A DNA stretch of 64,000 bases, taken from the NCBI GenBank assembly GCA_025998675.1, contig AP024673.1, positions 248,001-312,000 of the forward strand, in the 5' to 3' direction. Both the position numbers and the translations under genes were made by a program. Below the pieces are notes generated by a model. The model was given only the letters and a program-made list of their open reading frames with translations, ran no database searches and was not told the DNA's origin. This DNA is from Fimbriimonadales bacterium. Lineage in GTDB: Bacteria > Armatimonadota > Fimbriimonadia > Fimbriimonadales > GBS-DC. This document shows positions 44,591-47,978 of this stretch, one piece after another (the stretch's first letter is position 1; every line of letters begins with the position of its first letter).

Positions 44591-44816
44591 ATACCAATCG
44601 GCAGGTCAGAGTTCGTAAAGCACCACTGCAAGTAGCCCTCACCCCCTTTGTCCCCCTCTCCCAACGGGTTGGGAGAGGGGGAGAGTGCGTTGTGAACCGC
44701 TTGCGCGACTCCCCTCTCCCGCCGCGTGGGAGAGGGGCTGGGGGTGAGGGCAAAACGCGCGCGGCTCTGGCTGTAGGCGCACGGCAATTACGAACTCTGA
44801 CGGCGCATTTGGTATT
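44591..44816. repeat. 226-bp inverted-repeat element, copy 3 of 4
   Basis: Left end is ATACCAATCGGCAGGTCAG, now matching the right-end sequence in inverted orientation (CTGACGGCGCATTTGGTAT). Exact 226-bp spacing again. Confidence 0.85.
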
Positions 44817-45038
44817 ATACCAATCGGCAGGTCAGAGTCGTAAAGCACCACCGCAAGTAGCCCTCACCCCCTTTGTCCCCCTCTCCCAAAGGGTTGGGAG
44901 GGGGATAGCGCGTCGCGCGCCGCTTGCGCGACTCCCCTCTCCCGCGCGGCGGGAGAGGGGCTGGGGGTGAGGGCAAAACGCGCGTGGCTCTGGCTGTAGG
45001 CGCACGGCAATTACGAACTCTGACGCGCCGATTGGTAT
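44817..45038. repeat. Inverted-repeat element, copy 4 of 4
   Basis: 222 bp. Left ATACCAATCGGCAGGTCAG and right CTGACGCGCCGATTGGTAT form almost perfect terminal inverted repeats of about 28 bp including GTTCGTAA/TTACGAAC. This copy closes the array, about 90 bp before the reductase promoter. Confidence 0.85.
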
Positions 45039-45130
45039 CAGCCCACCTGTAGAGAGGAGCCGTGCGCTGGCGGGCAGAGGCAATCCCCCAGATTTTGGGG
45101 CAAAATTTAACATTCCACCCCCTTAACCCC

Positions 45131-45161
45131 TTGACAACGCCGTCAACGGATTGGGTATACT
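45131..45161 (+). promoter_or_regulatory. Promoter of the ribonucleotide reductase genes
   Basis: TTGACA (45131-45136), a 19-nt spacer and TATACT (45156-45161). One of only two full -35 hexamers noticed in the window. It predicts a leader of about 95 nt. Confidence 0.6.
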
Positions 45162-45167
45162 GCGCTC

Positions 45168-45206
45168 GCAGCCACAACGCAGTGTACCGCTACTGGTTGT
45201 GGCTGC
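45168..45206 (+). promoter_or_regulatory. Strong hairpin in the 5' leader of the nrd operon
   Basis: GCAGCCACAAC (45168-45178) pairs with GTTGTGGCTGC (45196-45206). Inside, after one bulged G, CAGT pairs with ACTG, giving a 15-bp stem with an 8-nt loop. It starts at the expected transcription start. It is followed by AAAATCGCG and a start region with GGAGGG. Possible regulator of mRNA stability or translation. Confidence 0.65.
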
Positions 45207-45263
45207 AGGCGAGAAAAATCGCGCTTTGGCGAGATTAACTACAATAGATGGAGGGTTCTAACG

Positions 45264-46310: not shown

Positions 46311-47978
46311 ATGCGGACATCTACGGAGAGACCCCCATTCTACTGGCTCAACGAGGAGAGCCGACGGTTTTTATCGCGCGATTATCTGTTGCCGGGCGTC
46401 AGCGCGGAGCAGCGCATCCGCCAGATTGCGGACTATGCCGAGGGGATTCTGGGCATCGAGGGCTTCGGCGATAAGTTTTACGACTACATGGCGCGCGGCT
46501 GGTACTCGCTGGCGACCCCTGTGTGGACGAACTTCGGGCTCCAGCGCGGACTGCCCATCTCCTGCTACGGGAGCCTGATTGAGGACGATTCGGCGTCGAT
46601 TCTGTTCACGGCGTCGGAGGTGGGGATGATGACCAAGCTGGGCGGCGGCACTTCGGCGTATTTCGGCAAGCTGCGCCCGCGCGGCGCGCCCATCCGCGAC
46701 AACGGCTACAGCAACGGCAGCTTCTCCTTCGCCAAGCTGTTCGACCGCATGATCGAAGTGTTCAGTCAGGGCAGCACGCGCCGCGGGCAGTGCGCCGCCT
46801 ATATCGACATCGAACACCCCGACCTCGAAGAGTGGCTCTGGATCCAGCGCGAGGGGTGCGAGATTCAACTGCTCTACTGGGGCGTGTGCGTGGGCAACGA
46901 GTGGCTCCAGCAGATGCGCGACGGCGACGCCGACAAACGCCGCCTCTGGGCAAAAGTGCTGGAGTCGCGCTCCGAAGTGGGCATCCCCTACATCTTTTTC
47001 AAGGACAACGCCAACAGCGGCGCGCCCGAAGTGTATCAGCAACTGGGCAAGCGCATCTACGCCTCCAACCTCTGCACCGAGATTATGCTGCCCGCCAGCG
47101 CGGACGAAAGCTTCGTGTGCTGCCTCTCGTCGATGAACCTGCTCCATTACGACGAGTGGAAAGACACCGACGCCGTCGAAACGATGGTCTTTTTCCTCGA
47201 CGCGGTGATGGAGGACTTCATTCGCCGCGTGCAGGACATCCCGTTTATGCAGCGGGCGTACAACTTCGCCGTGCGCCATCGCGCGCTGGGGCTGGGCGTA
47301 CTGGGCTGGCACTCGCTGTTGCAGTCCAAACGCATCCCCATCGAGAGCATGGACGCCTATCGCCTGAACACGGAGGTGTTCCGCACGATTCGCGACCGCG
47401 CCTACAACGCCTCCGCCGACCTCGCGCGCCGCTTCGGCGAGCCAGAGTACCTCAAAGGCTACGGCAGGCGCAACACGACCCTGCTCGCGATTGCGCCCAC
47501 CAAGTCGTCTTCGTTCATTCTGGGGCAGGTCTCGCCTTCCATCGAGCCGTTCATGAGCAACTACCATGTGAAAGACCTCGCGAAGGTGAAGACCACCTTC
47601 AAAAATCCCTACCTGCAGGAGGTTCTGCGCGCGCGGGGCAAGGACACCGACGAGGTGTGGCAGAGCATCGCCGCGCACGACGGCTCGGTGCAACATCTGG
47701 ACTTCCTGAGCGACGAGGAGCGCGACACCTTCCGCACCTTCAGCGAAATCTCGCAGATGACGCTGGTGCAGCAGGCGGCGCAACGGCAGGCGTTCATCGA
47801 TCAGGGGCAGTCGCTGAACCTGATGATTCACCCCGAAACGCCCGTGCGCGACATCAATCTGCTGCTGTTGCGGGCGGCGGAGCTGGGCGTGAAGTCGCTG
47901 TATTACCAGTACAGCGTGAACGCCGCGCAGGAGTTCAACCGCGAGCTATTGCTGAGCTGCCGCGTGTGTGAGGGGTGA
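46311..47978 (+). CDS. Class I ribonucleotide-diphosphate reductase alpha subunit
   Basis: 555 aa from ATG 46311 with AAGGAGG four nt upstream; a frame start at 46281 lies before that site. Short for the class and without an N-terminal ATP cone. The active-site set is visible: CYGSLIEDD (first redox Cys), NLCTEI (N-x-C-x-E thiyl site), CLSSMNL (second redox Cys), SLYYQYS (radical-transfer Tyr pair) and a final CRVC pair. Reduces ribonucleotides for DNA synthesis. Without the ATP cone, overall activity control by dATP is probably absent, while substrate-specificity control should remain. Its 3' end overlaps the convergent R-M gene by 33 bases. Confidence 0.93.
   Translation: MRTSTERPPFYWLNEESRRFLSRDYLLPGVSAEQRIRQIADYAEGILGIEGFGDKFYDYMARGWYSLATPVWTNFGLQRGLPISCYGSLIEDDSASILFTASEVGMMTKLGGGTSAYFGKLRPRGAPIRDNGYSNGSFSFAKLFDRMIEVFSQGSTRRGQCAAYIDIEHPDLEEWLWIQREGCEIQLLYWGVCVGNEWLQQMRDGDADKRRLWAKVLESRSEVGIPYIFFKDNANSGAPEVYQQLGKRIYASNLCTEIMLPASADESFVCCLSSMNLLHYDEWKDTDAVETMVFFLDAVMEDFIRRVQDIPFMQRAYNFAVRHRALGLGVLGWHSLLQSKRIPIESMDAYRLNTEVFRTIRDRAYNASADLARRFGEPEYLKGYGRRNTTLLAIAPTKSSSFILGQVSPSIEPFMSNYHVKDLAKVKTTFKNPYLQEVLRARGKDTDEVWQSIAAHDGSVQHLDFLSDEERDTFRTFSEISQMTLVQQAAQRQAFIDQGQSLNLMIHPETPVRDINLLLLRAAELGVKSLYYQYSVNAAQEFNRELLLSCRVCEG

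Follow-up and report, generated by a model that had tools for sequence, protein, structure and literature searches.

Bacterial ribonucleotide reductase genes are usually repressed by NrdR, which senses dATP/ATP. This protein recognizes a 16-bp palindrome, the NrdR box (general consensus ACACWATATNTNGTGT), and an operator for it has two or more boxes separated by whole helical turns, usually 31–32 bp centre to centre. The available text of one study reports that NrdR favours integer turns, with spacers of 14–17 or 24–27 bp, binding having been tested only to 27-bp spacers, or about four turns (PMC12051234), and in another a box separation of about three turns is described as a good fit for the NrdR tetramer (PMC9110341). 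For E. coli nrdAB, the accessible part of the report describes three boxes, of which the two that truly bind as a pair lie downstream in the promoter (PMC12176259), and for Pseudomonas aeruginosa topA the accessible part describes regulation via a single NrdR box (PMC4409342). Among the matches listed in literature searches, neither “Fimbriimonad” nor “Armatimonad” occurred, and nothing on point appeared for the NrdR regulon and dnaE.

We analysed a 64,000-nt stretch of DNA, hereafter the window, from a 2.99-Mb Fimbriimonadales genome, in which NrdR-box-like sites (N1 to N4, and the degenerate site NA) are placed upstream of and over the start of a ribonucleotide reductase operon of nrdB and an NrdE-prime gene (Table 1). 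Pfam recognized only the barrel and all-alpha domains in the alpha subunit. As at Streptomyces coelicolor nrdRJ and E. coli nrdHIEF and nrdDG, 16-bp palindromic sites overlap both the promoter and the start region of a ribonucleotide reductase operon, nrdR lies behind a box, and nrdR stands beside class II nrdJ. In contrast to the pairs of those species, more than two sites are found here, the strong ones are five turns apart, two abut, and one covers the ribosome-binding site. With its boxes 0, 1 and 2, E. coli nrdAB likewise has three box-like sites and a downstream functional pair, but according to the available text that pair has a 15-bp spacer, whereas the downstream pair here would have a 36-bp spacer (PMC12176259). 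The locus appears ordinary in kind, a predicted NrdR operator with an unusual layout.

Table 1 Features of the nrdB region, with positions in the window
Feature	Position	Strand	Evidence
N1, CCCCCAGATTTTGGGG, 5′ of promoter	45085-45100	.	14.3 bits, best site of the 64-kb window; 13/16 columns invariant in 11 leaders
Motif (G)CAAATTTAACATT adjoining N1	45101-45114	.	95% mean pairwise identity
Candidate -35 element, TTGACA	45131-45136	+	sequence; also in relatives
N2, CGTCAACGGATTGGGT, in -35/-10 spacer	45141-45156	.	7.1 bits; right half 6.6, left half 0.5
Candidate -10 element, TATACT	45156-45161	+	6/6 columns invariant in 11 leaders
Inverted repeat, possible 5′-terminal mRNA hairpin	45168-45206	+	arm complementarity and folding
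NA, degenerate, CCACAACGCAGTGTAC	45172-45187	.	3.9 bits, up to 8.7 in relatives; left half 5.9, right half -2.0
N3, CCGCTACTGGTTGTGG	45187-45202	.	8.1 bits in window and L024; 12.8-15.5 in the other 9 complete leaders
N4, CTACAATAGATGGAGG, overlaps ribosome-binding site	45239-45254	.	12.5 bits, third-best site of window
nrdB, class I ribonucleotide reductase beta subunit, 324 aa	45264-46238	+	PF00268, E 4.1e-54
Class I alpha subunit, NrdE-prime type, short	46311-47978	+	TIGR02510, 873.9 bits (cut-off 602.25)

The preliminary description of this DNA had placed a 15-bp stem-loop with inner CAGT/ACTG pairs at the 5′ end of the leader, about where transcription from a full promoter should begin. 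Given the -35 and -10 candidates, nrdB transcription would begin near 45168, and the inverted repeat starts 7 nt past the TATACT element. The spacer between TTGACA and TATACT is 19 nt, too long for a consensus promoter scan that accepts 16–18 nt spacers and listed no promoter here. The inverted repeat itself is real, with arms GCAGCCACAAC (45168–45178) and GTTGTGGCTGC (45196–45206) that are perfect inverse complements forming 11 pairs with 17 nt between them; the inner pairs are likewise there, as CAGTG/TACTG, but follow a one-base bulge. The folding energy of the 39-mer including the inner pairs was -25.6 kcal/mol, and that of the 108-nt leader from 45168 was -39.2 kcal/mol (z -2.99), a stability reached by 0/200 dinucleotide shuffles. 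A second inverted repeat, GGTATACTGCG (45154–45164) and CGCAGTGTACC (45178–45188), joins the -10 element to the hairpin loop. Directly 5′ of the nrdB promoter, 44600–45030 contains near-identical repeat units (...CCCTCACCCCCTTTGTCCCC...) resembling a dispersed repeat.

The box matrix was derived from nrdR promoters. The same genome encodes nrdR (G000:C1:403357-403791, scoring over the TIGR00244 cut-off), as do 88 of 98 genomes in the class. Upstream regions were examined for 40 of these 88 genes, chosen by hand to span families and genera, and for a further 8 from the genus; 39/48 scored above 10 bits, with box starts mostly 32 bp apart, and 9/48 had no convincing box pair. When all regions were included the consensus was CCCCAACATGTTGGGG, and leaving out the own family gave CCACAATATATTGTGG; the scoring matrix was built from 27 of the 35 nrdR regions that belong to other families, and no nrdB sequence went into its training. 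In these nrdR promoters the partner-facing half-sites were the stronger ones (27 pairs, Wilcoxon p 0.006). The own-genus nrdR promoter carries a strong box, CCACAAGATGTAGGGG, directly after the -10 element and a weak partner 30–31 bp further, and this box position matches that at the nrdB promoter. In the genome of the window, nrdR lies behind its own strong box and precedes class II nrdJ on the same strand. That nrdJ (L092 656-5797, minus strand) is a single frame of 1713 aa that greatly exceeds its barrel-domain match and has two insertions resembling inteins. In family f3, words like TGTGGAAAA and TGTGGATAA occur 5′ of nrdR (for example L125, L130 and L134), which we take to resemble DnaA boxes.

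No NrdR-box pair had been obvious on first inspection of nrdB, yet with this matrix box-like sites were found at 45085, 45141, 45187 and 45239. Together the three best sites scored 34.9 bits, a sum that none of 6341 other 190-bp tiles of the window reached (maximum 19.1), and the 11-leader mean of this sum was 32.2 against a maximum of 17.5 in 300 column shuffles. The centres of N2 and NA are 31 bp apart (three turns), those of N3 and N4 are 52 bp apart (five turns) in 11/11 leaders, and NA and N3 abut at 15 bp centre to centre. Mean scores over 11 leaders for partner-facing versus other halves were 6.0 vs 1.0 for N2, 7.2 vs -1.9 for NA, 7.1 vs 5.1 for N3 and 7.9 vs 4.3 for N4. In one relative, L029, N3 reads TCACTATAGGTTGTGT and agrees with the general box at 14/16 positions. 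The left hairpin arm is the left half of NA and the right arm is the right half of N3; these strong halves flank one another, which produces a long inverted repeat and, once transcribed, a hairpin. The right half of NA is unlike a box, yet able to pair with N3.

The genome-wide box search proposed in the preliminary description gave no enrichment, since a degenerate pattern (≤1 mismatch) matched 35 sites per strand against 74 for the reversed control. Other whole-genome box matches were at 657406 (19.2 bits, without clear gene context), 685182 and 68153. At 27 remote nrdB loci (L030–L057 without L044), many of whose starts lie just behind another gene, the matrix scan found no consistent box pair, and these loci were set aside. 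The motif GGCAAATTTAACATT at 45101–45114 was found within the genus at nrdB promoters, with one 1-mismatch match elsewhere in genome G009; in genome G016 it occurs at both the nrdB and nrdR promoters (≤1 mismatch).

To evaluate conservation, relatives were collected through NrdB, for which 15/61 genomes gave a match at E ≤ 0.001, 12 of the 15 (own genome included) being at least 91% identical. Eleven leaders were complete, namely the window and L019–L026, L028 and L029, all Fimbriimonadales; a twelfth (L027) is cut by a contig end, and its upstream part lies on another contig end of the same genome (L155). The leader is strongly conserved across the window and the 10 complete relatives, and aligns without gaps from 45141 to 45254. 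Mean pairwise identity over the 11 leaders was 95% for both 7-base hairpin arms and 88–92% for N1, N3 and N4, versus 72% for the 45207–45238 spacer, 62% for nrdB four-fold sites and 34% for the upstream flank before 45085. Conservation peaks also lie outside the transcribed leader, in N1 and the adjoining motif. The arms are thus kept in close relatives, but the perfect stem is not: from the alignment, the pair 45171/45203 is unformed in 8/10 complete relatives (six U.C, one U.U, one A.G) and the remaining two have a mismatch at a neighbouring pair, so that among these leaders 11 unbroken outer pairs are peculiar to the window. The covariance analysis of nrd leaders that the preliminary description had suggested yielded no compensatory double change in 11 leaders, a count reached by 500/500 shuffles in a test that low variation makes weak. 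Paired cells amounted to 92.9% against 92.3% in shuffles, 99/500 of which were as high. Because no compensatory pair was found and paired cells were not clearly above shuffles, these data demonstrate conservation of the leader but not of an RNA structure.

We consider it probable that the inverted repeat belongs to an NrdR operator of several boxes and that the hairpin is mainly a by-product, NrdR binding being predicted from the sites. The pair at 45141 and 45172 would straddle the -10 element and the transcription start, the pair at 45187 and 45239 would lie in the leader and extend to the ribosome-binding site, and the further site at 45085 would stand upstream of both. We infer that at high dATP NrdR would bind the pairs it uses here and, by keeping RNA polymerase off the nrdB-nrdE′ promoter, repress the operon. 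Several points speak against the NrdR reading: the N2/NA pair, which has the canonical spacing, is weak (7.1 bits and 3.9 bits in the window), N3/N4 is strong but spaced beyond published tests, the right half of NA is unlike a box, and the degenerate pattern was not enriched over its reversed control in the genome. Abutting boxes drawn from the matrix folded at -5.1 ± 3.1 kcal/mol, compared with -14.6 kcal/mol for the window 31-mer, and only 0.7% of drawn pairs were as stable. Boxes alone may therefore not explain the whole hairpin, since the window 31-mer is better than 99.3% of those drawn. The 31-mers of relatives folded at -6.7 to -13.7 kcal/mol, with 1.4–28% of drawn pairs as stable, values that are not independent because the leaders are closely related. 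A residual role for the RNA hairpin, as a second job, is possible.

In a dual-use reading, the same bases would act in DNA as NrdR half-sites and in the mRNA as a 5′-terminal hairpin under selection, for example to shield the 5′ end from decay or to tune translation. We regard this dual use as doubtful. Pairing in 93% of cells across the 11 leaders would agree with it, as would L029, in which the outer helix is exchanged for CAAC/GTTG and still pairs with one bulge, and the inner UGUA/UACA pairs, which are not derived from boxes; but there is neither a compensatory pair nor an excess of pairing over shuffles, the outer stem is mismatched in relatives, and their 39-mers have folding z scores of only -2.0 to -4.3. 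The nrdR leader of the own genus has hairpin potential too, that of the own family likewise forms a hairpin at this place, and in a spacer-shuffle folding test the 13 own-family box pairs had a mean z of -1.41 against -0.45 for the 27 others. The outcome is not clear-cut, as the second own-genus box falls partly within the “spacer”, and z was positive for two members of the own family.

The preliminary description had left open a nucleotide- or cofactor-sensing leader, an mRNA-stabilising hairpin or an operator; the evidence favours the last, specifically a predicted NrdR operator, with a stabilising side effect possible. A riboswitch-like leader RNA sensing a ligand or nucleotide and controlling nrdB seems highly improbable: its loop, GTAYCRCTA, is conserved in 11 leaders, and full hairpin-core matches occurred only 5′ of nrdB among the matches listed, but Rfam gave 0 matches at gathering score over the whole window, covariation and a terminator-like partner structure were not found, and conservation extends beyond the transcribed leader. 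At E up to 10, Rfam returned 5 weak, unrelated matches in the leader (E 0.016–10; microRNA, snoRNA and viral-element noise), which were rejected. That the repeat is instead the operator of another dimeric regulator is improbable as well. CCACAAC-N17-GTTGTGG is itself not NrdR-box-shaped, and both the second inverted repeat and the second conserved motif, beside N1, would suit such a protein, but the half-sites fit the NrdR matrix at NrdR-like positions, and the hairpin core (≤1 mismatch) was not found outside nrdB among the matches listed for 18 genomes. Allowing ≤3 mismatches in the 18 family genomes, counts of dispersed hairpin copies among the matches listed were about those of the reversed control.

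Returning to the predicted NrdR operator, a pattern scan also identified CCCCAACATCTTGGGA (at G000:C1:7595-7621, minus strand), which covers the ribosome-binding site of a dnaE-like gene whose product, judged from its N-terminal sequence, presumably resembles DNA polymerase III alpha. An NrdR-like box was found at -24 from the ATG in 12/16 genomes with this gene (loci L163–L173 and L176), comprising 11/11 in the genus and genome G013, and was absent in four, G016 among them; the shuffle p value was 0.003, the lowest attainable. The dnaE-like gene is a possible NrdR target. P. aeruginosa topA offers a likeness, a single box at a DNA-metabolism gene; in the accessible text topA is activated by NrdR, as examined with mutants, whereas the candidate box here covers the ribosome-binding site (PMC4409342).

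A more ambitious reading, which we think unlikely, is that of a new-layout NrdR operator in which neighbouring three-turn and five-turn pairs have facing half-sites that double as a 5′-terminal mRNA hairpin, and a box covers the ribosome-binding site at this operon as well as at the dnaE-like gene, so that a single dATP sensor would tie the replicative polymerase to dNTP supply, through transcription and possibly also translation. Neighbouring palindromic repressor sites can yield a leader hairpin, which is a trap for RNA-motif searches. An NrdR motif is now available for Fimbriimonadales, and the sites described here suggest a five-turn-spaced operator and a link between NrdR and the dnaE-like gene in these bacteria.
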